A stretch of 12,514 bases of DNA, from positions 1 to 12,514 of the forward strand of contig JASLXP010000269.1 in assembly GCA_030740295.1 (NCBI GenBank), given 5' to 3'. Below, in pieces: positions 1-12,514 of the stretch (the stretch's first letter is position 1; every line of letters starts with the position of its first letter). This DNA comes from Planctomycetota bacterium (GTDB lineage Bacteria > Planctomycetota > PUPC01 > JACPCR01). Position numbers and translations under genes: made by a program. The notes under the pieces are model-generated. The model was not told the DNA's origin and searched no databases. It worked only from the letters and a program-made list of their open reading frames with translations.

Positions 1-3000
1 TGCACTGGCATTAATCGTCACTCCGAATGAGCCACCTATCTGTTCGTTAAATAGTTTTAAAGAGTAATTGCCCTGCCCGGGATTGTTCCGGTCCCGAATT
101 AGTAAAGCGCCGTGTTGCTTGCCATACCTTGTCCAACCCTCCAAATCATTCTCGAAATCCGCATCGACAAGCAACTGATCCAGCTTCACCAAAGTAGGTA
201 CGGTTTTGTCTTTCTGGTAACTCCATACGTACTCCCATTCAATAACTTCGTCTCCAAAATTCAGTTTGAATGGGATTCGCTGTCCAGACGCGAACGTATG
301 TCCGTTGGAGGGCAGCGAAAATCGGATCTGCCTGGCGGCAGCATCTGCTTGTACGTTCTGATGCGCAGAACTATAGGCAGAGCCGGCAACAGTGATCTGC
401 ACCGTCTGAGGAAAGGTCCTGCCACTGGATTTGATCAGAATCGGCTGCCCACCCCACTCAGACTGGGCCTTCGGAACGATGCTTTCAACAAAAGAAGGAG
501 CTGCGATCCGGAGTGGGAAAGAAGTGACTGGCAATTCTTTTCCATTCATCAGTTTTCCTGCCATATTCAGGTAGAAATAACCATTCTTTCCAGAATCAAA
601 TTTGACAGCCCTTTTCTCGGGATCAGTAGTTCCGTCGGCTTTAAACAGAACTTTATTAGTTCCTTCCTGAACAACAGATTCCGGACGATTGCTGAACCAA
701 TGGGCCACAGATTCCAGGCCAGCGCTTTTTCCACCATCAGAGCCATTGACTGTCAATTCGATCTCGCCAGCCTGGCCGCCCTCACTCCAGATCTTGAAAT
801 TGTCGAGCCAGTATCGCAGCCCGGCCTGGTTGCCCGCAAGCCCGGCCTGAATGTAACCCGTGTGCCGATTGCCAAACCACAACTGCTCAATGTTGATTTC
901 CGAACTGGAAGGATAGAGTTTCTTCAAAGAGGCATAGAGGTCGAATTCAGCGTGCCTCCATTTGCCATCGGCCTGCACGTCACGAATGTGACCTAACGAC
1001 TTCAGGTTCTCATTCGAATCTCCAGAACCGGTCAGTTGCACAAAGTGCCACTGCTTTCCCGCGATTCTGTCAGCCGATTCAAACGGTGATACGGCCCCGC
1101 TCAATTGCAGGTAGAGATTGGTTTTAACGTCCGGTGGAATTCGATATTCGAACTCCAGCCGGGCTCCGAGCGCGAGATTGATTCCTGATGCCGGAGCCGA
1201 GACGGCGAAGTCGCCGCCGGCATTAATGTTCGTCATCTCCAGGCACTGATTGCGTCCGTTTCTGGGAACAACCGCAATGGCCGCTCCCTGGTCGCCACTT
1301 GGATTTGCCCATCCTCCTGAACCGTTAGCGAAGTCTGAATAAAGCCCGGGATGGCTCTTTGAGGCTGCGTGCATGCGCAGTTCCTTACTTCCTGTTGCCG
1401 TCAGCTCGGGATCGACTTTGCTGCGGAGAGTTCTTTCGTACTGGGTTTTGACGCGAGCCACCATGATGCTGTTGTTTTGCGTCCAGAGGCCCACCTTGCC
1501 CTGTTTGAGGGGATTTGGATCTTCCCATGAGAGGATGAGCTTGTTGTCCAGATAGTAATAAAGCTTGTTCCCCTTCTTTCGAATTTTTACATAGAACCAT
1601 CGCCTGTGAAGGGTCGGCAAAGGCGGGTATTGAAATCTGGTACTTGGGACTCCAACATTTTCTGTTTCGGCAACAACTTTTCCGTTTTTGAATATACGGG
1701 TGGTCGTAGTGTGCCATCCGGCCAATACGAATGTGTAGCCGCTGAAAACATTTTTTCCGTCGCCGCAGATGACCGCGTTCATGTCGCCCGGCCGGGGATA
1801 GTATGGGCTCCAGTTCACCTCTTTTCGGTATCGCATGCCGGTGTAGTATTCGAGCGTGATATCTCCCTCGAAAGAATTCTTGTGCCACGCCGCGGCAAGG
1901 CCATCACTTTCGGCGGCAAGATACGACCAACGAGGGTCGCACGCGAATTTATTAGTGACTTCCCAACGGCCAACGACGTTCCAGTCGGTGGGAGCGGATT
2001 TGAATAAATTGTCAATTACGTGGCCACGCTCGATCCTCATCTTCTCAAAAGAGGGCTCACCCGTGAACGCAATTCCCAATCGAGTTCCTGCCGGCCTGCT
2101 CTTTAAGCGCCATGTCATCAGATCTTTGCCCTGATAACTGCAAACGATGTACTGGCCATCGCATTCAACCTTTAACGGTTCGTCAGCACTGGGCGAAAAG
2201 AATACGTCTTTCACAATTTGGCCAGACTCACGCCCACCCAGTCTTGCTTTGCCATCGGAGGATTCAAGGAATAGCAGGTGACCGCCCCAAAAAAACGATG
2301 TCGTCTCTGCACGGAGGTAAAGCAGCGTTCTGGATATCTTGGGCTTTTCACCCTCCTTGGATGCACTGTTCACCGGGATTTCAAGATGAACTCGGCCGTA
2401 AAAATCACCTTTGTGCCAGAACGTCCGTGTTCCGTTCTGTTTCTTATCCTCGACCCATGCACCTCTTGGAGCAGACCAATCGAGCATGTAAACGTCCTTA
2501 TTGAATATCTCATTGTCTTCGAGAATCTCGATGTTCTCCGAAATAGTTTCATGCCATCGGTTGCCTCCAAAGGTGGCGTTGATTCGTGGTCCTGTGGCGA
2601 ACAGGCCGGCGCCCCCTTTGACGTTAAGAGGGAGTTGCGTCCGCAGTTCCAGATTGCCGTCAACATAGAACCTGGCGAGAGTTCGGTCGGCAAGGTCGAG
2701 GGTCAGTACTGATGGATGCCCGTGTTCTCTATGAGTCGACAGTCGTGCCGAATTGAGTGTCTTGAACTGTCCATCTTTTATTTGAATCAGTTCGACCAAC
2801 TCGTTCCTCTTGACCGCGAGCATGAAAGTTTTCGCATCGCGCCAGTCAAACATTATTCCGGCGGACATATTTTCAGGCTTCGTTTCAACCGTCGTGCTGA
2901 AACAGTTAGCCCGCCATTCGCTGTGGCCCAGCCAGTAGACCGAAGCAGCATCTTCGCCCCGCACCTGTAATGCGGCGCCATCTGGCTTCTTGATTACCTG

Positions 3001-4161
3001 CCATGTGGCGCCTTTTGTCTTTTCAGTGCCACTCGTACCAGTGACAGGAATCTTCTTTCCACGGAGAAGGGTTTCAGAGTAGGCCAGATCCCAGGCTGTC
3101 GGTGTCTTTATCAGCACGTCATCGAATTGAGCGTGGCCGCCTTTGGCTACAAACAGTCCTGCTTTACCTTTCGAGTATCGGGTATGGGGCACATCAATGT
3201 ATTTGCGGCCGTCAATCTGCACGCGAATCCTCTCCGTCCCTGCGTAGACCTCGACGCCATACCACTGATTGAGTTTGCCAGGCAGTTTGGCCGTGGCCAG
3301 CTCGCTTATGAGCTCGGCATCTCGACAAAACAGACGCAGCTCGGATGCGACTGGAAATACGGACTCGATCTTCCATTCAAGGCCGTAGTAATGGGAAGCA
3401 TCCTGGATAAAGAAGGCACAACCGCCGCTTCCTCGTATCGAAAATTTGAAATCATATTCGTCCCAGAAGCTGCGCCCGACAACGGACAGGGCCAGGTCTT
3501 CCTTAGCGTCACCTTCAAATATGAAGGGATTGGAACTTCGCGAAAAATTGTCCTCCTTGAAAAATGTCGACTGAAGATGTTTGTCGATGGTTGAAGTTAT
3601 CTTCCAGTCACCCGAAACAGTCTTCCAGACGGTGTCCTCTGCCTGAGCCCGCATAAAGTCGTCTGCGAAGTAAATGTCTGTGACAGGCTGATACCGAAAC
3701 TTCAGCAGCTTTCGGTGCTCATCAGAAATCGCAATCGCGATCTTGCCTTCGTGGAGGGCTCCATCGCCGGTCGCGAGTAGTGCATCTTCACCGAACAGAA
3801 TGGACAGGCGGAGCCGTCTGCGGCGGATGGTCAGACTGGTGAATTCCGAAACGGTGGCTTGTGCGAGCTGTTGCTGCAGACCGGCGAGGGTGCGGGTCAG
3901 GGTGGCCTGGCCCTCGGCGACGGACAGCCTGTAGAAACGTGACGCATCCTGGTAACCGAAGATGAGGTCGGCAGGTTTGCTGCCAGTTTCCAGCTTGAAT
4001 TCGAGATTGTATTCCCCGTGCTGAGCCTCACTGCCGACGGTGTATTCAGTTCCGCCGATTGAAAGCACTTCCACCGCGTTCTCCTGCTTCTCTGCATCTT
4101 CGGCGAAGAGAGGAAGACCAGTGACCAGAAAGAAGGAGAGGTATACCCGAGCGAAAAACAA
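1..4161 (-). CDS. Giant exported multi-beta-sandwich (ConA/LamG/DUF1080-like and CBM-like) protein, 3'-partial
   Basis: One minus-strand frame stays open from 4161 to base 1 (1387 codons, no stop), so the C-terminus is outside the window. An in-frame TAG at 4197-4195 limits the start. The only usual start codon giving an export signal is TTG at 4161, encoding MFFARVYLSFFLVTGLPLFA followed by EDAEK, a convincing signal peptide with cleavage near residue 20. No Shine-Dalgarno sequence precedes it. The mature protein looks like a string of beta-sandwich units. One ends near residues 300-350 (QWYGVEVYAGTERIRVQIDG, then KGKAGLFVAKGGHAQFDDVL). Another ends near 853-911 (RRWFYVKIRKKGNKLYYYLD, then GKVGLWTQNNSIMVARVK). 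These are typical strand patterns of LamG/DUF1080 (3-keto-disaccharide hydrolase-like) folds. Residues about 940-1125 resemble a carbohydrate-binding jelly roll ending LDNFKIW. About 1130-1330 look Ig-like, and a further unit opens at about 1337 (DFENDLEGWTRYG). I see no clear catalytic motif. A role in glycan binding or surface structure is inferred. It is more AT-rich than genes to its right. Confidence 0.82.
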   Translation of the reverse strand, partial: MFFARVYLSFFLVTGLPLFAEDAEKQENAVEVLSIGGTEYTVGSEAQHGEYNLEFKLETGSKPADLIFGYQDASRFYRLSVAEGQATLTRTLAGLQQQLAQATVSEFTSLTIRRRRLRLSILFGEDALLATGDGALHEGKIAIAISDEHRKLLKFRYQPVTDIYFADDFMRAQAEDTVWKTVSGDWKITSTIDKHLQSTFFKEDNFSRSSNPFIFEGDAKEDLALSVVGRSFWDEYDFKFSIRGSGGCAFFIQDASHYYGLEWKIESVFPVASELRLFCRDAELISELATAKLPGKLNQWYGVEVYAGTERIRVQIDGRKYIDVPHTRYSKGKAGLFVAKGGHAQFDDVLIKTPTAWDLAYSETLLRGKKIPVTGTSGTEKTKGATWQVIKKPDGAALQVRGEDAASVYWLGHSEWRANCFSTTVETKPENMSAGIMFDWRDAKTFMLAVKRNELVELIQIKDGQFKTLNSARLSTHREHGHPSVLTLDLADRTLARFYVDGNLELRTQLPLNVKGGAGLFATGPRINATFGGNRWHETISENIEILEDNEIFNKDVYMLDWSAPRGAWVEDKKQNGTRTFWHKGDFYGRVHLEIPVNSASKEGEKPKISRTLLYLRAETTSFFWGGHLLFLESSDGKARLGGRESGQIVKDVFFSPSADEPLKVECDGQYIVCSYQGKDLMTWRLKSRPAGTRLGIAFTGEPSFEKMRIERGHVIDNLFKSAPTDWNVVGRWEVTNKFACDPRWSYLAAESDGLAAAWHKNSFEGDITLEYYTGMRYRKEVNWSPYYPRPGDMNAVICGDGKNVFSGYTFVLAGWHTTTTRIFKNGKVVAETENVGVPSTRFQYPPLPTLHRRWFYVKIRKKGNKLYYYLDNKLILSWEDPNPLKQGKVGLWTQNNSIMVARVKTQYERTLRSKVDPELTATGSKELRMHAASKSHPGLYSDFANGSGGWANPSGDQGAAIAVVPRNGRNQCLEMTNINAGGDFAVSAPASGINLALGARLEFEYRIPPDVKTNLYLQLSGAVSPFESADRIAGKQWHFVQLTGSGDSNENLKSLGHIRDVQADGKWRHAEFDLYASLKKLYPSSSEINIEQLWFGNRHTGYIQAGLAGNQAGLRYWLDNFKIWSEGGQAGEIELTVNGSDGGKSAGLESVAHWFSNRPESVVQEGTNKVLFKADGTTDPEKRAVKFDSGKNGYFYLNMAGKLMNGKELPVTSFPLRIAAPSFVESIVPKAQSEWGGQPILIKSSGRTFPQTVQITVAGSAYSSAHQNVQADAAARQIRFSLPSNGHTFASGQRIPFKLNFGDEVIEWEYVWSYQKDKTVPTLVKLDQLLVDADFENDLEGWTRYGKQHGALLIRDRNNPGQGNYSLKLFNEQIGGSFGVTINASA

Positions 4162-4405
4162 AGGTGGATGTCTCGATGAGAGAAGCGAGGCGCTCTAGCG
4201 GCGGGGATGGGGACGCCCATGATATTAACTGCATCCCCCGCATCCACACCCAATCATCCCTGGGAGCAGTGGTTGACGAACATCCGCGTAAAGATTCCGG
4301 TATCGGCAACTCCAGCGCGCCGAACGGCAGCAGCCAGATCGTTTTCGGCAACTGCCATGTAATGGGCGTCCAGGAGGACGCGGAAGAGGCACCGGCAGCG
4401 GCGCG
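4162..4405. other. 244-nt intergenic gap between the proline-rich gene and the giant beta-sandwich gene
   Basis: The gap is gene-free in the sense that I cannot support a coding region. The two minus-strand ORFs crossing it (from 4351 and 4253) run in frames different from the downstream gene and look non-protein-like. It holds a small perfect hairpin at 4366-4381. I could not identify a convincing promoter, although the distance allows the downstream gene its own promoter. Confidence 0.5.
4366..4381 (-). other. Small perfect hairpin 25 nt after the proline-rich gene stop
   Basis: GCGTCC-AGGA-GGACGC on the plus strand is a 6-bp GC-rich stem with a 4-nt loop. It lies 24 nt beyond the stop codon at 4406-4408. 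No T-run follows on the minus strand, so it is not a standard intrinsic terminator. It could be a weak 3'-end stabiliser or coincidence. Confidence 0.3.
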
Positions 4406-5674
4406 TCAGTCCAACTTCTGCTTCGGCGGCACGGGCATTTGTGGCCGCCGCGGGCTTTCGGCTGGCCCTTCGAATGCCTTGAGTTTCAGAGGTGGATGGT
4501 GGCCGGGCAAGGGGTAGTGAACATCTGCGTGCTGGACATCTGTTTCGTGGGTCGAGAGCCGGGGCCAGTTGGTGAGCACTTTCAATTCAGGCAATGGCTC
4601 TGTCTGCTGTGCGGGCGGCAGCGGGGACGCCGTCAGTTTGCGTGATGACTGATCGGGATACCTGGTTTTGGAGATGCCCTTGCCCGACCTTGTGATCGGG
4701 TCGTCAGCCTTCATGGCGAAAGACTCTCTGCCGAGAGAGGAATCGCTTACGGCCTCGTCCAGATGTTTCGGGTCCAAAGATGGCATCTGCTTCATTGGCC
4801 GGGGAGCGGGAAAGCGAACGGAAGCGAATTGATCTTTCAATGTTACATCCGGAAGGACTTCCTGTGTGGGTGCTGGCTGGTCTTTGGCGAGGAGGTCCAG
4901 TTCCGGGATACTCGATGGCGATTCAGGGCTCTCCCTCCGATCTGCAGGTGGCACGCCGGTGAAGGAGCCAGGCGCAGGCCGGTCCCTCGGTGTCCCGCTA
5001 ATCTTGACGGGCGACAGAGCGCGGTCTGATGACCACTCTTTTGCTGAGAACGCGGCAAGCTTTTTGGCCGTCTCTGCCCCAGGTACAATCCTGACCTCTG
5101 CGGTGGGAAAATCGAATGACTGGCCCTGTTCGGCACGCTCTCGGACGGGTCTGCGCAGCCGAAGGATTTCGCCGTTTTCCCCGGCTGGTTTTGCATGCCC
5201 TGCAGGGGTTGGGAGCCGCACCGGGCGAGATGGCGTTTCGCTGGGTGGCTGCACCTGGAAATCGATCTGTGTCTGCTCACCGTCCGCCAGATTTGAGGAG
5301 GCAGGATATGTGTCTGCCAGCGCGACGGGGTTCGGGACAGGAATTCTGATGGGCTCGACACGGTTCGCCTGATTCCGCTCTACCACGACCGGGGCAAGAG
5401 AGAAATGCGGAATTCGTTCGGCCAGAACGTTCGTTCGTTTTTCAGCCGCCAGCGGAGCGGATGGAACTGGTCGAACCGGATTCTTGGGCTGTATTCTCGC
5501 GAGTCTCTTGCCAAAATTGGATCGGACAAGAGGCGGCGACTCGGCCGGTTTCTGTTCAGTTGGCTTGTTAGGTCCGGCAGGCCCCGGCGCAGTCGATCTC
5601 CCAATGAAGATGCCAACGGCGAGGGCCGCTGCACCAATAGCAATTGCGACAGGTATCAGGTGTTTGGGATTCAT
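4406..5674 (-). CDS. Proline-rich single-pass membrane-anchored protein, function unknown
   Basis: The 422-residue frame starts at ATG 5674 and ends in TGA at 4406. Residues about 5-25 (HLIPVAIAIGAAALAVGIFIG) form one hydrophobic helix after a short MNPK N-terminus. No cleavage site is obvious, so it is probably an inner-membrane anchor with the rest in the periplasm. From residue 27 on, the chain is rich in Pro, Ser, Ala, Glu, Arg and Lys and very poor in hydrophobic clusters and Cys, so it is probably disordered and extended. A partly ordered tail may be present near 370-410 (LKVLTNWPRL, then HYPLPGHHPPLKLKAF). I recognise no family. A TonB-like role is tempting because of the N-terminal anchor plus Pro-rich span, but no TonB C-terminal domain is visible. 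It lies between the TPR gene and the giant beta-sandwich gene on the same strand, suggesting an envelope-spanning or scaffold role (inference). No Shine-Dalgarno sequence precedes the ATG. The length and intact frame support a real gene; function is open. Confidence 0.72.
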   Translation of the reverse strand: MNPKHLIPVAIAIGAAALAVGIFIGRSTAPGPAGPNKPTEQKPAESPPLVRSNFGKRLARIQPKNPVRPVPSAPLAAEKRTNVLAERIPHFSLAPVVVERNQANRVEPIRIPVPNPVALADTYPASSNLADGEQTQIDFQVQPPSETPSRPVRLPTPAGHAKPAGENGEILRLRRPVRERAEQGQSFDFPTAEVRIVPGAETAKKLAAFSAKEWSSDRALSPVKISGTPRDRPAPGSFTGVPPADRRESPESPSSIPELDLLAKDQPAPTQEVLPDVTLKDQFASVRFPAPRPMKQMPSLDPKHLDEAVSDSSLGRESFAMKADDPITRSGKGISKTRYPDQSSRKLTASPLPPAQQTEPLPELKVLTNWPRLSTHETDVQHADVHYPLPGHHPPLKLKAFEGPAESPRRPQMPVPPKQKLD

Positions 5675-5697
5675 AGGCGCTAAGGGGACTTAAACCT

Positions 5698-5722
5698 AAA
5701 AAAAATTCTCGATTTGAGAGAA
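5698..5722 (-). terminator. Candidate intrinsic terminator or attenuator (weak hairpin plus T8)
   Basis: On the minus strand, TTCTC (5722-5718), a 7-nt loop and GAGAA (5710-5706) form a 5-bp stem. It is extendable to 7 bp with a G-U pair and is followed directly by eight T residues (5705-5698). The stem is AT-rich and weak, but the U-tract is strong. It lies after the TPR gene and ends 23 nt before the proline-rich gene's ATG. It may therefore separate the two transcripts or act as an attenuator in the leader of the second. Confidence 0.5.
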
Positions 5723-5725
5723 CTC

Positions 5726-5799
5726 GTTTGTAGTGCGCCAGTCATGGCGCTTTGGGCGACTTCGTCGCCCCGAACGGCGATAACTCGCCGACTACAAAC
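5726..5799. repeat. 74-nt perfect four-way-junction (cloverleaf) intergenic element
   Basis: The outer arms GTTTGTAGT (5726-5734) and ACTACAAAC (5791-5799) are exact 9-nt inverse complements. Between them lie three perfect hairpins. Hairpin 1 is GCGCCA-GTCA-TGGCGC (5735-5750). Hairpin 2 is GGGCGAC-TTC-GTCGCCC (5754-5770). Hairpin 3 is CGGCGA-TAAC-TCGCCG (5775-5790). In all, 56 of 74 nt pair with no mismatch, and only linkers of 3 and 4 nt are left at the junction. It lacks tRNA features (7-nt anticodon loop, acceptor layout). The architecture resembles REP/MITE-like dispersed palindromic repeats, but no second copy is present in this window, so the repeat label is inferred. Confidence 0.75.
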
Positions 5800-5808
5800 T
5801 GAGCCCAT

Positions 5809-5830
5809 GCAGGCTGTGACTCAGGCCTGC
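5809..5830. other. Inverted repeat with 6-bp arms between the cloverleaf and the TPR gene
   Basis: GCAGGC (5809-5814) and GCCTGC (5825-5830) flank a 10-nt loop. Immediately beyond it, GCCC-GAA-GGGC (5832-5842) forms another short stem. Together with the hairpin at 5845-5872 they make nearly the whole 207-nt gap capable of folding. No individual function can be assigned. Confidence 0.35.
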
Positions 5831-5844
5831 TGCCCGAAGGGCCC

Positions 5845-5872
5845 ATTCTTCTCAGCGCAGCCTGAGAAGAAT
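5845..5872 (-). other. Perfect 11-bp hairpin directly after the TPR gene stop
   Basis: ATTCTTCTCAG (5845-5855) and CTGAGAAGAAT (5862-5872) pair perfectly around the 6-nt loop CGCAGC. On the minus strand the stem begins 9 nt after the TAA at 5882-5884. No T-tract follows it, so a 3'-end stabiliser or Rho/processing element is more likely than a classical terminator. The T8 hairpin further on (5698-5722) could complete termination. Confidence 0.6.
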
Positions 5873-5881
5873 CATAGAGCC

Positions 5882-8800
5882 TTACTTCAGCAATTTCGCC
5901 AACTGCGCTTTTGCCAACTCGGCATGGGGAGTCTTCGAAAACTCGGTCAGGACCCGATTCAGATAATCTTTGGCTTCCTTGGTTTTCTTCTGCTGGATTG
6001 AGGCGTCGGCGGCCTGGCAGAGGGCGGCCGCACTCCATTCGGGATAGGCGTAGCTGTAGACCACGTTCAAGAAATTCTTGACGGCCGCGTCAAAGAGTTT
6101 CGCCTCCATGTTACTGGTTCCGATCTGAAATTGAGCCTTTGCGGCAAACTCGTTGTCTGTGGCGTCGATCACTATCTGGTAGGCCTTAATAGCCGCGTCG
6201 TATTTTTTCTGTGCCTGCAATGCCCGGCCCTGCATGAATTGGGCTTCGATCAGAAACGGGCTCTTCGGGAAACGAGAAATCAGTAGAGCTGAAGTCTTTT
6301 CGCTGTCGGCATGCTTTCCCTGCTCAGCCTGGGCAAAGGCGAGCCGGAGCAGGGCGCGGTCAGACAGTCCGGCAACATTCTGAAAAGCGGGCTGGTCGAT
6401 GAACAGTTGGAATTTGGCCGCGGCCTTGTCGTTTTCGTTGAGTCGCAAGTGAGCTTCCCCGCTCCGAAACGCTGCATGGGGGGCCAGGGGACTGCTCACG
6501 TTTGCGATCACCGATTCGAAGAGTGGAATCGATTCCTTGTCCTGCTTTCTCTCAAAGAGGCAGGAGCCGAGCAGGAAAGTGACCTTTTCCTTGAGCGATT
6601 CGCGGACAGGCTTGGTGCGAGCTGCGGTCAGCAAAGGTATGGCTTCGTCATAGCGGCCGCGCATTGCGTGGTGATCGGCCAGTTCATACCTCGCGTCCGA
6701 TGCGATGAGTGAGTCGGCCCAGGTCGCAATGATGATCTTGTATTGATCCATCATCAGCGTTTCTGCGGGGACGATGGGCACTGCATTCATCGGCACGTCT
6801 GGCGGGACGCTTCCGTCTTTCGCTTCCTCCACCGCTTTCCAAGCCAATCGCTGTCGAGCGTTTGCCATCTGCTGCATGGCGGCCGGGCGGTAGCACCACG
6901 CGAGCTCGTAATGAACTCTCGGCCAGGCGGCTGAGTCACGCTGCTTCGCCTTCAGGGCCAGCAGATTGGTGAAGTATCGGCTGCAGCTACCAAAGCTGAG
7001 AAGCCCGGATTGTTTCTGGGTCTGGGCCTGTGTGCGCGCGTCCGGAGTCAGGTCTGTTTTCTCGAGCGCGGCCTCGGCAGTAGCAAGGAGTTTGCCGGCA
7101 TCAAGGGTCATGGCCTGGCCGATGCGCAGGCCCGCTTCAGGGGCTTCCGGTCGGGCGGGGTAACGCTTCAGAAAATCTTCCATCACAGTTTTGGACTCGG
7201 CCGACTTGCCCGCGTCTTTGAGCGCGAGGCCATGCTGGAAGTGGAGGTGCACGGCCCACGCGTCCCTTGGCGGGCCGGATTTCACCAGGGCCTCTTCATG
7301 CTGCTTGCGGGTCTTATCAAGGAGGGCGACCGCGTCCTCAGCCTTGCCCTTCGTGCGCAGGGCCTGGGCCTGCCGCAGCGCCGCGAAGGGGACAATCGGC
7401 GAAGCATTCAGCGGCGGCTGCGTGAATTTGGCGAGTTCCCTGATCCCGCCGTCCAGGTCGCCGGCAGCGATGAGGCTCTTCGCAAATTCAACAACCGCTT
7501 GCGGTGCGAGGGCATGGTCCGGGTATTTCTGATTCAGTGCGACATACGTGCCCTGGGCGAGGGTCAGCACTTCTTTGCGCACGTCCCCCGCCTCCATCGG
7601 TTCGGCCTTGAGTTGGTAGCACATTCCCAGCTTCATCAGGGCTTCGGGCCGCTGCGGGTGATCGGGATTGTTGCCGAGGAAAACTTTCAGCAGCTTGATC
7701 GCTTCATCCAGATAGGTTTCCCGCTTTGCTGCATCGGCTTCCTTTTCCCAGGAATCGGGGACCTGGCGGAGAAGGCAATCAGCCCTGAGTGGGAGGCCCT
7801 GTGCGATATCGCCCTTGAAGTCCTCCGGCGCAATCGGAGTGAGCGCTGCATCGGCTTCCTGGAATCGTTCCTGCCGGTAAAGCGATGCGGCCAGTCCAAG
7901 GCGCGCCAGGTTGAGATGCGAAAACTCCCGGTAACCATGCACGAGCTTCTGATATCGAACACCCGCCTCCGCGTATGCCTTCAGGATCTTTGGGCCGCGC
8001 TGGGCGTCTTCCTGCGGTAAATTTTTTTCGAGGTCTGCTGCAATGAAGTATGCGTTCTCCGCGGTGCGAAAGAGTATCTGCGGGGTCAGCTCGCTTTTCG
8101 GATAGGTCTGAACAAACTTTGCGCACAGCTTGTCCGACTCTTTATGCTCGCCCGCGAGGTGGAGCGCGGTCGCCTGCCGGTAAAGCAGCTCTTCGCCGCG
8201 GGCATCGGCGCCCAGATTGAGAATATCGAGGTAGTTGGCGCCGGCGTCCTTGAAGTTCTTGGTCAGCATCTGGGTGTCGGCCAGATGGATCATGACTTCG
8301 GACAGGCGCTTCTTGATGGCAGCATCGGTGGCGCTCTTGGGCTTGAGAATTTCGATCGCCTTGCGGAAGTGATCCATGGCCGCCTGATACGCTTTGGGCT
8401 GTTCCTCCGGCTTTGCAGCTTCGCCGATCGAAACCTGCGCCCGGCCAAGCCAGAGCTGGGCTTCGTCGGCCATCTCAGGCGCACTTTGAATCAACGGTGT
8501 CACCGCATCCATGCTTTCCTTGAAACGGCCAAGATGCCAGAGACTGATGCCCTGCCGCAGTTGGGCGTCTGCCAGCAGAGCGGATTTCGGATGGGCCTTG
8601 GCGAAGTCGGTGAATGCCTTGAACGCGTCGTCGTGCTTGTCCAGCTCGAAGTAGAGCGCGCCCTTGTAGTAGCGCGAGCGCTCGACATGCTCCGGCGGCA
8701 TCTTTACGAGCGACTCGAGCCGGGCCTTTTCGTCGGGCTTTTCTTTGAAGTCATCCGGTTTTTTCAGGGCGGCCTCGGCCGCGGCTTTCGCTTTCTGGTA

Positions 8801-9670
8801 GCGAGCCAGAACCATGTCGTATGCCTCGAAGGCGCCCTCGCTGTCATTAGTGAGATGCCGCGCCCGGCCGAGCAGGTAGCGGCCATGCTCAGCATGTGTC
8901 TGCGAAAGGGGATCTTCCGGCATCGGAACTCTATCAAGGGATTCCTTCGCCTTTTCGTAGGTGCCTAACTTGAATGACGAGAACCCGAGATGGTAACGCA
9001 CCAGGTCCAGGTAACTGCTGCGAGCAGCCCAATTCAGCGCGAGAAATGCCTCGGCGACGGTGATCACATCCTTGTGTTTGCCTGCACGAAGGAGCATCTC
9101 CGCCTGTTCGCTTCTGGCTCGCGCCACCCATTCCCAGACGGATGGTAGATCTTCGCCATCCAGCGGGGCCGGTGCTCCTGCGCTGAAGGCTTCGGCAGCC
9201 GCGGAGAAATGCCTGGAGGCGGTCTCGAAGCTTTTGATGGCCGCGGTCAGCAGATCCGTGGCGGGGGTCTGCTTCGATTTCGCTTTGAACATCGCAGATT
9301 CTCCAAGGCGGCGATTTCCGAGCGCGAGGTAATAGAGCGCATGCTGCCGTTCCAGGAAGTCCTTAGCAGCGACGACCTCCGTGAGCTGCGCGACCGCGGT
9401 TTTGAGCTCCTCGTCAGACGAGCCTCTGGAATCGATGAGCGTCAGCGACAGACCGAATTTGGCGTGGAGAGCCTGAGGGTTGGTTGCGAACCGCGCCAGG
9501 AACTCCCGAAACCGCGCCGCGGCATAGCCGTATTGCTTATCGTTGTATGCCCTCTTGGCGGAGTCGAGAACAAGCTTGCTGACATCGTGTTTTGCCTCGG
9601 CCTTCAGGGCTGGGCAGAGGGCAAGCGTAAGGGCACAGACGGCGAATAAGAGTCGATGGAGTTGATTCAT
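5882..9670 (-). CDS. Giant exported tetratricopeptide (TPR) repeat protein
   Basis: The 1262-residue reading starts at ATG 9670 (MNQLHRLLFAVCALTLALCP then ALKAEA), a standard signal peptide with cleavage near LKA or AEA. A GTG three codons upstream (9679) is possible but adds only VYP. Neither start has a Shine-Dalgarno sequence. The Cys residues in the signal do not fit a lipobox (residue -1 is Leu or Val), so the protein is probably soluble in the periplasm. Nearly the entire mature chain is helical TPR/BamD-YbgF-like repeats with the W/Y-G-A-Y-A-P pattern. Examples are ALYFELDKHDDAFKAFTDFA, LRQGISLWHLGRFKESMDAV and, near the C-terminus, QFMQGRALQAQKKYDAAIKA. There is no enzymatic domain. 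In PVC-type bacteria such proteins often neighbour biopolymer-transport or envelope genes; here the next genes encode an anchored Pro-rich protein and a giant surface protein. A protein-protein scaffold role in the envelope is inferred. The frame is intact and GC-rich. Confidence 0.9.
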   Translation of the reverse strand: MNQLHRLLFAVCALTLALCPALKAEAKHDVSKLVLDSAKRAYNDKQYGYAAARFREFLARFATNPQALHAKFGLSLTLIDSRGSSDEELKTAVAQLTEVVAAKDFLERQHALYYLALGNRRLGESAMFKAKSKQTPATDLLTAAIKSFETASRHFSAAAEAFSAGAPAPLDGEDLPSVWEWVARARSEQAEMLLRAGKHKDVITVAEAFLALNWAARSSYLDLVRYHLGFSSFKLGTYEKAKESLDRVPMPEDPLSQTHAEHGRYLLGRARHLTNDSEGAFEAYDMVLARYQKAKAAAEAALKKPDDFKEKPDEKARLESLVKMPPEHVERSRYYKGALYFELDKHDDAFKAFTDFAKAHPKSALLADAQLRQGISLWHLGRFKESMDAVTPLIQSAPEMADEAQLWLGRAQVSIGEAAKPEEQPKAYQAAMDHFRKAIEILKPKSATDAAIKKRLSEVMIHLADTQMLTKNFKDAGANYLDILNLGADARGEELLYRQATALHLAGEHKESDKLCAKFVQTYPKSELTPQILFRTAENAYFIAADLEKNLPQEDAQRGPKILKAYAEAGVRYQKLVHGYREFSHLNLARLGLAASLYRQERFQEADAALTPIAPEDFKGDIAQGLPLRADCLLRQVPDSWEKEADAAKRETYLDEAIKLLKVFLGNNPDHPQRPEALMKLGMCYQLKAEPMEAGDVRKEVLTLAQGTYVALNQKYPDHALAPQAVVEFAKSLIAAGDLDGGIRELAKFTQPPLNASPIVPFAALRQAQALRTKGKAEDAVALLDKTRKQHEEALVKSGPPRDAWAVHLHFQHGLALKDAGKSAESKTVMEDFLKRYPARPEAPEAGLRIGQAMTLDAGKLLATAEAALEKTDLTPDARTQAQTQKQSGLLSFGSCSRYFTNLLALKAKQRDSAAWPRVHYELAWCYRPAAMQQMANARQRLAWKAVEEAKDGSVPPDVPMNAVPIVPAETLMMDQYKIIIATWADSLIASDARYELADHHAMRGRYDEAIPLLTAARTKPVRESLKEKVTFLLGSCLFERKQDKESIPLFESVIANVSSPLAPHAAFRSGEAHLRLNENDKAAAKFQLFIDQPAFQNVAGLSDRALLRLAFAQAEQGKHADSEKTSALLISRFPKSPFLIEAQFMQGRALQAQKKYDAAIKAYQIVIDATDNEFAAKAQFQIGTSNMEAKLFDAAVKNFLNVVYSYAYPEWSAAALCQAADASIQQKKTKEAKDYLNRVLTEFSKTPHAELAKAQLAKLLK

Positions 9671-9913
9671 GGGGTACACGAGAGGATGTGAATAACGAAA
9701 AGAGATTGAAGGGAAGGGGCGAAAACCAAGGCGAAGACTGTATCACTTCGAGCCTCTGCCGGACACTGGCCGCGCCGCACGACTCGTCCGGCATTTCGGC
9801 AAAGGCAGTACACCATATTGTCTTCATTTTGACGAACGTCTGATGGTGCCTTTCGACGAACAGAAGCAAACGCCGCTACGACACTTTCATCAGAATATCG
9901 AACACTGATATCG
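9671..9913. other. Intergenic gap upstream of the TPR gene
   Basis: This 243-nt gap separates the nitrilase stop from the TPR start. On the minus strand the last 45 nt before the TPR start are pyrimidine-rich and contain no ribosome-binding sequence. A 92-codon minus-strand ORF spans it but overlaps both neighbours and looks spurious. A weak inverted repeat (ATCAG and CTGAT, 11-nt loop) follows the nitrilase stop without a T-tract. I cannot assign a promoter, although the gap is large enough to hold one. Confidence 0.45.
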
Positions 9914-10780
9914 TCATGCCTTGGCGGTCTGATCCGAATCGTCAATGTGGTAATAGATTTCCGGTTTCAGGCAGCGGGGTACAAAGCACGAGTTCCGCCG
10001 TCGTTTGGCAATCTCTTCCGGGTCCAGTTCAGCCACAGCCATCGCCTCGCCGTTACCTCGCTGACGAGTGAAGGAGACGACATTACCATCCGGGCCGAAG
10101 ACCCCTGCCCAGCCGGGAAATTTGTTTCCATTCGGTTCCCATATGTTCTTTTTGCGAGTGCCGGCGTTGTTGCAGACGATGCCGTAACAGCCATTGGAGT
10201 AGCTCGTTGTCCGGTAACAGAGCGCGGTGATATCTTCCTCCGGAAATCGGCTGCGCGGTATCGAAGTATTGTACGCGAAGGGCATGATGAGGAGCTCTGC
10301 CCCCTTGAAATAGAGGGACCGGGCCAGCTCGGTGAAAAGTGAGTCATAACAGATCATGATGCCGACCCGGGCCTTCCCGATATCGAAGGCGTCAATCTCG
10401 AAACCGCTTCGCCAGTAGAGATACTCCACGTGCGGCATGTGGATCTTCCGCTGCTTGCCCAGAATGCCATCACCATTCACCAGAACCTGCGTGTTGTAGG
10501 CGACATCCGCATCCCGCTCGAGCATGCCAAAGCAGATGACAGCCCCCACCTCCTCGGCGATACGAACAATCCTGTCCGTTGTCGGGCCCGGTATCTCTTC
10601 GGCCAGGTCCCAGGACACGTGATTATGGACATAACCGTTAATACCCAGCTCCGGAAAAACGATCAGATCCACATGCTTCTCCGCGGCTTTTCTGGACCAG
10701 CGCGCGAGATCCCGGATGCTGCGATCCGTCTCACCGATGTAGTTCCTGGTGGATATGGTTGCGACTTTCATTTTCTGCAT
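9914..10780 (-). CDS. Carbon-nitrogen hydrolase, nitrilase superfamily
   Basis: This 288-residue protein has the full length and catalytic set of the nitrilase superfamily. Glu44 lies in FPELGINGY, Lys112 in GKQRKIHMPH and Cys144 in GIMICYDSLF. The C-terminal LKPEIY resembles the closing R-x-E-x-Y segment of amidase branches such as N-carbamoyl-amino-acid or carbamoylputrescine amidohydrolases. It would hydrolyse a non-peptide C-N bond (amide, N-carbamoyl or nitrile) through a Cys thioester. The exact substrate cannot be read from sequence. There is no signal peptide, so it acts in the cytoplasm. Start choice: ATG 10780 has GGGAG 7 nt upstream; a second ATG three codons in (10771) is a less well placed alternative. 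It follows the GH9 gene by 75 nt on the same strand, so cotranscription is plausible and may link it to use of an amino-sugar or amidated glycan product (inference). Confidence 0.93.
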   Translation of the reverse strand: MQKMKVATISTRNYIGETDRSIRDLARWSRKAAEKHVDLIVFPELGINGYVHNHVSWDLAEEIPGPTTDRIVRIAEEVGAVICFGMLERDADVAYNTQVLVNGDGILGKQRKIHMPHVEYLYWRSGFEIDAFDIGKARVGIMICYDSLFTELARSLYFKGAELLIMPFAYNTSIPRSRFPEEDITALCYRTTSYSNGCYGIVCNNAGTRKKNIWEPNGNKFPGWAGVFGPDGNVVSFTRQRGNGEAMAVAELDPEEIAKRRRNSCFVPRCLKPEIYYHIDDSDQTAKA

Positions 10781-10787
10781 TCGAAAA

Positions 10788-10792
10788 CTCCC
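10788..10792 (-). promoter_or_regulatory. Ribosome-binding site of the nitrilase-family gene
   Basis: The minus strand reads GGGAG followed by 7 nt and then ATG at 10780. It is the only clear Shine-Dalgarno match among the starts visible in the window and it favours this ATG over the one at 10771. Confidence 0.6.
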
Positions 10793-10803
10793 GTTCTGAC
10801 CGC

Positions 10804-10824
10804 AATACGTAATGAGTAATGAGT
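10804..10824. repeat. Three-copy heptamer tandem repeat in the GH9-nitrilase gap
   Basis: On the plus strand AATACGT, AATGAGT and AATGAGT follow each other. Two units are identical and the first has two changes. The array sits in the 75-nt spacer upstream of the nitrilase start. It is short and could be a decayed microsatellite or a fragment of a longer repeat family. Confidence 0.55.
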
Positions 10825-10855
10825 GATGTTTCTTGGACCTGAATTGAGCGATTCT

Positions 10856-12514
10856 TCACCTGTCGATCAGAAAGCCATAGGCGATAGCTGTCTTTGTCAT
10901 AGTGGGCACGACTCCTTCGTTCATTCCCGGTGCCATTTCGACGTCGGTGTATGTGTGGAGCTGTGGCCATGGGCCGTTCGGAAAGAGGCCGGCGGCGATC
11001 CAACTGGTCATGCTTCCGCCGGCCGGTTTGCCCCCTGTTTGAGGCGAGGGGCCTTCGCACTGGATGCCCGGCATCGGGCCGTCAGGTGAATAGCGGGCGT
11101 AGGAATGGAGAGGGCCTGAAATCGACCGCTGCCCGAGCCCCGTCGTGAAGACCGTGTTCATCGGATGGCAGCCAAGGCTGAAATCGCAGGTCAATTGAAT
11201 CCATTTGAGGTACTGCGGATCCTTCAGCAGCGTGTATGCCTGCATGGGTGTATACAGCCAGCCCGGGTATGCGCCCGTGCCCCACGTATTCGGCGCGTAG
11301 GGGCTGCGCATGTATCGATAGCCCGTTGTCGATGCCATTCGGATCCATAGCCTCATCCGGGCTTTGTAGGAATTGAGGATTCGGTCCTTGAACTTAGCAT
11401 CCACAGGACGCTTGCAGAAGGCATAGTAAAACGAAGCGAACTGCTGGTCGTATTTTTGCCACACGTAGAGCTCTGCATTCGCATTCCCGCGAAAAACCGA
11501 ATGCTCATGGAAGTCTGCCAGGAAAGACGGCTCGCCGGTCGCGCGGTAGAGCTGAATGGCTGCCAGGGCCAGGGCATCCGGATGCTTTGCTGCTTTGTTG
11601 GACTTGGCCCAGGAATAGGCATCCTTTGCCCGTTTGAGGAACATCCCGGCATCTTCCGTTTTCTTCAGGGCTTTCCAGATGACGGCGGCCTGTGCTGCCG
11701 AGGCCGCGAAGTCGAGGGAGCCGGGCGCGTCCTTGGCGAAAGCGAAATCTCGCTTAAAGTCGATCTCCGGCGAAGTGATCATGTCCGGATCCCCATCCGA
11801 CTCAGTACCGTTGCGGACCCCACCGTCCGTATCCTGCAGCCGGACCCAAAGGTCAAGGGCCCACCGCGCTTCATCCAGAATGTCCGGGATGCCGTTGCCG
11901 CTTTCGGGGATGTTGTTCTGGCCGTCCGCGTAGTTTTCCGGCTTCATTTCCCAGGCCATGAACAGCCACTGGGCCACATCGAGGTGCGAACGCGGATTGA
12001 AATCGCCGGCATCGTGGTGGCCGCCAAAGAGATCGTGTTTGGTCTCATCGATAACGCTCTTCGGGAGCATCTGCCAGGCGTTGCGTTCGCTGCCGTGGAC
12101 GAGGCTCGTCAGCTCGGTCATGTTCCGGTGGCAGGCAGGATGATAATGCCTGGTATAGGGCTCTTTCATTTCCATTCCGCAGCGCTGGTGAAAGACGCCG
12201 CGAATGCATGTGCGGTAGGCTTCTTCGTAAACGTTCCGGCCGATCCGGAATTCAAATGAACGTCCCATCCCCGGCAGCGCCAGGTAATAGGTGCCCTCCT
12301 CTCGCAGGCCCGTAAGCTCGATCTCATGGATGTCTTCGTAAGAGAGGTCGTGTTTGTAGATCGTCTCTTTGCCCTTCGCGCCTTCAGGTGCGAGGGTGCC
12401 GTCAGGCTGCAGGTCAAAAGTATGCTTCAGCCGCAGCTTCGGCTTCACCCTCATTGCGATCTCATGGGTTTTGGCGTTGCGCACCTCGAATTCACGAATC
12501 GCAAGAAACGACAG
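10856..12514 (-). CDS. Glycoside hydrolase family 9 enzyme with N-terminal Ig-like domain, 5'-partial
   Basis: The frame is open to the right edge (10 codons upstream of a GTG at 12484, reading LSFLAIREFE), so the true start and any signal peptide are outside the window; 552 residues are visible. Numbering from that GTG, residues about 15-85 form a CelD_N/cellulase Ig-like domain ending FEFRIGRNVYEEAYRTCIRG. The (alpha/alpha)6 GH9 catalytic domain follows. GGHHDAGDFN carries the Asp pair D158/D161 (base and water-positioning). IPESGNGIPDILDEARWALD at about 192-211 is the family signature. Then come the LGCHPMNTVFTTGLGQRS segment (438-454) and the general acid Glu523 in APGMNEGVV. GH9 enzymes are inverting beta-glycosidases acting on cellulose, other beta-glucans or chito-oligosaccharides. 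The HH in place of the more usual WY before DAGD suggests a subfamily different from classic endoglucanases, so substrate is uncertain. It leads into the nitrilase gene 75 nt downstream. The visible frame is intact. Confidence 0.93.
   Translation of the reverse strand: MSFLAIREFEVRNAKTHEIAMRVKPKLRLKHTFDLQPDGTLAPEGAKGKETIYKHDLSYEDIHEIELTGLREEGTYYLALPGMGRSFEFRIGRNVYEEAYRTCIRGVFHQRCGMEMKEPYTRHYHPACHRNMTELTSLVHGSERNAWQMLPKSVIDETKHDLFGGHHDAGDFNPRSHLDVAQWLFMAWEMKPENYADGQNNIPESGNGIPDILDEARWALDLWVRLQDTDGGVRNGTESDGDPDMITSPEIDFKRDFAFAKDAPGSLDFAASAAQAAVIWKALKKTEDAGMFLKRAKDAYSWAKSNKAAKHPDALALAAIQLYRATGEPSFLADFHEHSVFRGNANAELYVWQKYDQQFASFYYAFCKRPVDAKFKDRILNSYKARMRLWIRMASTTGYRYMRSPYAPNTWGTGAYPGWLYTPMQAYTLLKDPQYLKWIQLTCDFSLGCHPMNTVFTTGLGQRSISGPLHSYARYSPDGPMPGIQCEGPSPQTGGKPAGGSMTSWIAAGLFPNGPWPQLHTYTDVEMAPGMNEGVVPTMTKTAIAYGFLIDR

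Follow-up and report, generated by a model that had tools for sequence, protein, structure and literature searches.

A 74-nt four-way junction in an intergenic gap of an uncultured planctomycete is very probably a head-to-head dimer of GTAG-type REP units

Between the genes for a TPR protein and a proline-rich protein of an uncultured planctomycete lies a gap in which four stems share a single junction. The question raised by this locus is what such a figure is: a fold formed by chance, a structured RNA of the operon mRNA, a recombination or cruciform site, or a dispersed palindromic repeat of the REP or MITE kind, moved by a Y1 transposase. The locus was analyzed within a window of 12,514 nt (contig JASLXP010000269.1, positions 1 to 12,514) and compared with other genomes, the closest of which is the Planctomycetota MAG G001, whose TPR protein shares 78% identity with the one encoded in the window. 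The features of the window are as follows:

4406 to 5674, minus strand: gene for a proline-rich protein, with its start codon 2 nt from the left end of the element
5677 to 5880, plus strand: whole A-type repeat element, taking up nearly all of the 207-nt gap, with approximate ends, from flank alignment to G001 copies
5726 to 5799, unstranded: 74-nt four-way junction core, very probably a head-to-head REP dimer; best BLASTN match to G001 at E 1.6e-26
5726 to 5734, plus strand: tag of unit 1, GTTTGTAGT, with GTAG at 5730-5733
5735 to 5750, plus strand: hairpin of unit 1, 6-bp stem, loop GTCA
5754 to 5770, unstranded: spacer stem-loop, 7-bp stem, loop TTC
5775 to 5790, minus strand: hairpin of unit 2, 6-bp stem, loop GTTA (on the minus strand)
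5791 to 5799, minus strand: tag of unit 2, GTTTGTAGT on the minus strand, with GTAG at 5795-5792
5845 to 5872, unstranded: right-flank hairpin, 11 bp; of ten pairs compared with G001 copy L039, four have changes on both sides yet are still paired
5882 to 9679, minus strand: gene for the TPR protein, upstream of the element, with Pfam TPR families; 78% identical to protein P0001

The fold reported by the first-pass annotation is exact: perfect stems of 9, 6, 7, and 6 bp occur at 5726-5799, with unpaired linkers of 3 and 4 bases (7 in total), and the framing by GTTTGTAGT and ACTACAAAC was described correctly and is unique within the window. A search for the same figure (an outer perfect stem around three perfect hairpins, with stems of at least 6 bp and at most 8 linker bases) returned this site alone in the window and no site in 100 dinucleotide shuffles, even when the outer stem was shortened to 5 bp. 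The RNA fold of 5716-5809 has a predicted energy of -46.6 kcal/mol (z -6.46), equaled or bettered by none of 200 shuffles; at the step used, the two most stable of 1242 sliding 94-nt windows were the two that contain the whole core. The core is also an imperfect palindrome, with 31-nt arms that are 74% complementary, and it is for this reason that RNAalifold prefers one long hairpin over the cloverleaf.

On the plus strand, the hairpin loops inside the 9-bp outer stem read GTCA, TTC, and TAAC, from which it had been argued that every arm has its own loop and that the element is modular. The difference holds on one strand only; the outer loops, GTCA on the plus strand and GTTA on the minus strand, are nearly identical, since each half is a copy of one unit, in inverted orientation to the other. 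The idea of a modular element therefore survives in spirit, but not the argument from differing loops, since the outer two correspond once each is read on its own strand. Each half, in its own orientation, consists of GTTTGTAGT followed by a 6-bp stem with its GTCA (plus) or GTTA (minus) loop, and the two units are inverted, with the tags outside, stems of differing sequence, and a small stem-loop as spacer.

This anatomy can be set beside that of known repeats. GTAG REPs have been defined by GTAG, or a close variant, separated by 0-2 nt from a short stem that is capped by a small loop (PMC6006769); the minimum stem is given as at least 7 bp in that source and as 6-13 bp in another (PMC3733652). 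Both units have GTAG, 1 nt, a 6-bp stem, and a 4-nt loop, and thus agree with this definition, while being one pair short under the stricter 7-bp rule. They are also the only units in the window, and lie on opposite strands, when a unit is taken as GTAG or GCAG followed by a perfect stem of at least 6 bp with a loop of 2-7 nt. REPINs are inverted REP doublets that form hairpins (Bertels and Rainey 2011, PMC3116915), and the core is likewise such a doublet and can fold into a single hairpin. We therefore regard the 74 nt as very probably a head-to-head heterodimer in which a structured spacer separates two GTAG-type REP units, that is, a REPIN-like, non-autonomous dispersed palindromic repeat. 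Its kind is already known among dispersed bacterial repeats, and is found here in an uncultured planctomycete lineage.

A BLASTN check for second copies, as proposed in the first-pass annotation, was positive in the related genome. The 74 nt gave 16 rows in G001 at E <=1e-3, at 15 places, with identities of 76-100% (100% over 27 nt only); five extra places (C4, C97, C17, C152, and C177) bring the total to about 20 dispersed places, a match at C154 (3 mismatches, inside an open frame) having been excluded from the count. Both halves are arranged head-to-head in 14 G001 copies; the first half stands alone at L044 and L051, the second half alone at L047, and the order is reversed at L046 and L048. 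REP families are expected to comprise singlets together with HH, TT, or HT groups, and this is the pattern seen, with the HH dimer in the window and half and reversed units in G001. The exact pair GTTTGTAGT..ACTACAAAC was not found in G001 (0 occurrences), because the outer stems of the G001 copies have drifted. In an automatic frame list made without gene calling, 12 of 19 G001 copies overlap no open frame of at least 70 codons, and the frames overlapped by the other seven (70-248 codons) we judge to be probably spurious; in G001 the repeat is dispersed in intergenic DNA. A chance fold, which the shortness of each stem when taken alone might suggest, is refuted by these related places, as well as by the absence of the figure from the shuffles and by the z-score, and its probability is negligible; the earlier view that chance formation was very unlikely is upheld.

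The surroundings of the G001 copies were compared all-versus-all among 78 proteins (76 open frames near 20 G001 loci and the two of the window). None of the neighbors of the G001 copies is related to the TPR or proline-rich protein of the window, which removes the candidate explanation of the element as a leader of paralogous genes. When frames that run across the repeats are disregarded, related neighbors occur at four locus pairs (L050/L093, 50% identical; L038/L048, L040/L051, and L045/L050, 25-30%), such that unrelated neighbors are the rule for most G001 copies, not for all. The B-type copies at L050:370-1296 and L093:477-1493 are those that adjoin the genes for the 50% identical proteins, and may have been duplicated together with the adjoining gene. 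Other palindromes of 200-300 nt, 68-71% self-complementary, lie near G001 copies (L036:1054-1353, L040:2324-2617, and L040:2085-2301).

The element is longer than the 74 nt originally recognized, with similarity to other copies spanning about 5677-5880. The left flank (aligned over 5677-5722) scored above all 500 mononucleotide shuffles against five of five A-type G001 copies. The right flank (5800-5881) did so against L037, L038, and L039; its score was matched by 3 of 500 shuffles for L036, by 40 of 500 for the hybrid L041, and by 332 of 500 for L044, which is truncated there. The ends of both the core and the long element in the window have no direct repeat of at least 5 nt, a plasmid search with 5690-5880 returned no match, and the exact unit-1 pattern was absent from the viral contigs searched. 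The orthologous TPR/proline-rich gap of G001 (L001) is 100 nt long and without the element, so that the check for an empty site was also positive, and the element was either gained at this gap in the lineage of the window or lost in that of G001. Together with the approximately 20 copies in G001, this empty gap bears out the proposal of a dispersed palindromic, REP/MITE-like repeat.

The same empty gap argues against a structured RNA retained for regulation, whether as a leader or as a processing element in the TPR/proline-rich mRNA, a reading we consider very unlikely. Such an RNA would be in keeping with the strong fold, with placement within the leader of two genes read in the same direction, and with the two-sided changes that preserve pairing in the right-flank hairpin when the window is compared with L039. 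However, the copies stand beside mostly unrelated genes, none of the G001 neighbors being related to the two genes of the window, and the window contains no Rfam family at gathering score (0 matches); the earlier suggestion of an RNA in the operon mRNA is therefore not sustained. The proline-rich protein itself matched no family in Pfam and NCBIfam at E 0.001. After the TPR stop codon, relatives carry other, unrelated long palindromes (L002 after 6608, L003 after 10735, L005 after 10756, and L009 after 10705), the last with repeated TTTGTGGAGTGC..GCACTCCACAAA units as judged by eye; this stretch seems to collect palindromic repeats.

Pairing was tallied in 15 sequences (14 G001 copies and that of the window). 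A given pair of the outer stem is retained in 8 to 15 of them; the range is 11 to 14 for pairs in the first hairpin and 9 to 15 for pairs in the third. The L037 row is one base short at its left end, and its outer-stem and first-hairpin cells are miscounted in these figures. Many G001 copies have broken stems. The fourth outer pair shows a compensated change from T-A to C-G in two copies and an unpaired C-A in five others. A check for compensatory changes, also proposed at the outset, thus gave a divided result: in 11 copies, the percentage paired was matched by just 4 of 500 shuffles, but the covariation score of the cloverleaf was matched by 59 of 500. The structure is broadly kept across copies, and covariation is weak and proves little for the cloverleaf; we do not use it as proof of that fold, for which RNAalifold draws the long hairpin instead.

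Outside the core, the G001 copies are mosaics. Those that are not A-type are bounded, on one side or on both, by GTAAATATTCAGTGAACCCGTTGG or a close variant of it; in the hybrid L041 a B-type left flank is combined with an A-type right flank; and pieces of the A-type right flank are scattered over many more places that lack the core. The B-type copies L093 and L050 have inverted repeats of GTAAATATTCAGTGAACCCGTTGG at both ends (up to 3 mismatches), which would suit an alternative in which the core is the interior of a DDE-type MITE, mobilized through terminal inverted repeats by a classical IS transposase. In the same direction, the first 21 bases of GTAAATATTCAGTGAACCCGTTGG recur nine times in G001 with the ending GTGTC; none of the nine lies farther than 300 bases from a contig end, which is how a multicopy IS would appear. 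Nevertheless, GTAAATATTCAGTGAACCCGTTGG ends are absent from every A-type copy and from the copy in the window, which therefore has no terminal inverted repeats matching an IS; the hybrid L041 combines the two flank types, half units occur without GTAAATATTCAGTGAACCCGTTGG ends, and the dimer architecture has other flanks in other genomes. In addition, neither L093 nor L050 is bordered by a direct repeat of at least 5 nt, and the IS transposase was not found. An IS66 origin of the B-type ends was rejected, given that the strong IS66 match of G001 (L103) lacks them. We consider the DDE-type MITE unlikely. Terminal repeats of sequence GTAAATATTCAGTGAACCCGTGTC at G001 contig ends (L116-L127) mark a probable multicopy IS, the transposase of which was not found in the G001 sequence.

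The differing flanks on either side of the core do not establish the recombination or cruciform site that had been proposed. A related reading, drawing on the hybrid L041 and the half copies L044 and L047, is that the dimer is a recombination-prone core, a RAYT-type REP pair inside IS-derived terminal repeats, spreading both as REPIN and as MITE and trading flanks; we put this forward only tentatively, as a rather improbable extension of the REP dimer.

The sequence of the 74-nt core is rare in the phylum, and the dimer architecture is more widespread. None of ten further TPR-bearing genomes gave anything better than E 0.0134 for the 74-nt sequence, and 58 of 59 relatives of G001 had no match to it at 0.001. 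Unit 1, with up to 2 mismatches, was matched in three of 392 phylum genomes (15 times in G001, 14 in G143, and once in G040), compared with single matches in each of 14 of the 392 genomes for the reversed control; the G001 and G143 matches are above chance level, and that of G040, equal to the control, was discarded. The inverted tag-pair pattern GTTYGTAGT-N32..62-ACTACRAAC was found in 15 of 392 genomes (reversed control, 2 of 392), with 259 matches in total, including overlapping ones, and the highest counts in G176 (107), G013 (93), and G282 (32). Of the 40 places listed, 38 were parsed: hairpins of 5 bp or longer accompany both tags in 21 pairs, one tag in seven, and neither in ten. Units of tag and hairpin are present among the parsed pairs of nine of the 15 genomes; the tag is fixed by the search pattern, and meeting it unchanged from genome to genome is no result in its own right. 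The parsed pairs of G178, G268, G344, G153, G287, and G084 are without hairpins, and we do not count these genomes as REP-bearing. Three of them share a nearly identical 56-nt palindrome, GTTTGTAGTGG..CCACTACAAAC, without REP-type hairpins (L173 in G178, L174 in G344, and L175 in G268). In G143, units form tandem and inverted arrays.

G143 also provides a linked REP-associated tyrosine transposase (RAYT). The L165 ORF at 1543-2085 (with ATG at 1543 chosen as the start) scores 82.2 bits against NCBIfam NF047646, REP-associated tyrosine transposase (cut-off 80), and matches the TnpAREP structure 4er8 at 2.8e-7; it is not recognized by Pfam, including Y1_Tnp, at E 0.001. It is flanked by a GTTCGTAGT hairpin at 1497 (plus strand) and an inverted unit at 2231 (minus strand, with one bulged base), the tags lying outside, and by an additional bare tag at 2286 (minus strand). 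At L180 (G012), a RAYT domain scores 90.6 bits and its ORF ends approximately 40 nt before a REP dimer. The L180 ORF (92-1456) also matches D12 methyltransferase, and scores far below cut-off against the DUF1156 anti-phage-associated model. Among the five Pfam Y1 matches of G143, four are without a unit, and L170 has a degenerate unit approximately 420 nt after its ORF; L172, one of the Pfam Y1 matches, is above the RAYT cut-off with no unit nearby. None of the 10 Y1 matches of G001 has a tag-and-hairpin unit in its locus (bare tags occur in L054 and L058 only), and none of the nine open frames standing for them reaches the RAYT cut-off (best, 66 against 80); this negative carries little weight because the L165 RAYT, too, escapes Pfam Y1_Tnp. 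Movement by a Y1 transposase, as first suggested, is thus favored indirectly by the same-tag units around the L165 RAYT, and not by the Y1 matches of G001.

By analogy with known systems, a RAYT (Y1/HUH) would recognize GTAG and the hairpin on single-stranded DNA, where the pair is predicted to fold as the cloverleaf or as one long hairpin; in E. coli, GTAG is crucial for the cutting of single-stranded REP by TnpAREP (PMC8266576). The enzyme would cut beside a unit and join it elsewhere, allowing spread through intergenic DNA. The copy in the window may have been moved in this manner, and would now lie passively inserted within the leader that precedes the proline-rich gene.

GTAG REPs are described as having mostly 6-9-bp stems, small loops, HH dimers, heterodimers, structured spacers, and RAYT-linked copies (PMC3733652), and they occur in Planctomycetes (Di Nocera et al. 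2013, PMC3733652). The dimer resembles them in the GTAG at the foot of a perfect 6-bp stem, the small loop, the outside tags, and the intergenic location; it resembles their heterodimers in having partners with different stems, a stem-loop in the spacer, and a planctomycete host, and it resembles some of their families, such as GTAG-15 of A. variabilis, in being set within a longer palindromic context (PMC3733652). These likenesses are of described anatomy, not of named-family consensus sequences. Unlike the GTAG REPs of that account (PMC3733652), the nine-base tags pair with each other here and close a four-way junction, and it is these pairing tags and the mosaic flanks that make the dimer of interest. 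A literature text search for the tag or its complement gave, among the matches listed, titles that look unrelated, and we do not claim that the tag is unpublished. Like REPINs, which form hairpins in single-stranded DNA or mRNA and are proposed to be non-autonomous mobile elements linked to RAYTs (PMC3116915), the core is an inverted doublet, although no linked RAYT was found in G001. The L165 RAYT ORF between inverted same-tag units is comparable to REPtrons and TnpAREP (PMC8266576), but it belongs to another genome, with other stems, and the window has no such RAYT arrangement. Some B-type copies of G001 share their 24-bp terminal inverted repeats with MITEs that have IS ends; the copy in the window has none.

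An eye-catching fold is in this way attributed to a mobile repeat and not to an RNA of the operon, and GTAG REP dimers are extended in uncultured Planctomycetota. Genomes such as G176 and G013, with their many tag-pair matches, and G143, with its linked RAYT, could be used to study REP movement outside Proteobacteria.

Other transposase-related loci were observed in G001. GTAG/GCAG hairpins of the same sequence, CCTGGGGCAACGCCCCA, lie on both sides of an IS200-like frame with an internal stop (L055:1384 and 2156), possibly a decayed REPtron of another REP family. The frame at L057:1201-1920 joins a LexA-like N-terminus (residues 10-79; 70 bits, under the lexA cut-off) to an IS200-type transposase domain, and the 306-aa open frame at L056:949-1866 contains two IS200-type transposase stretches.
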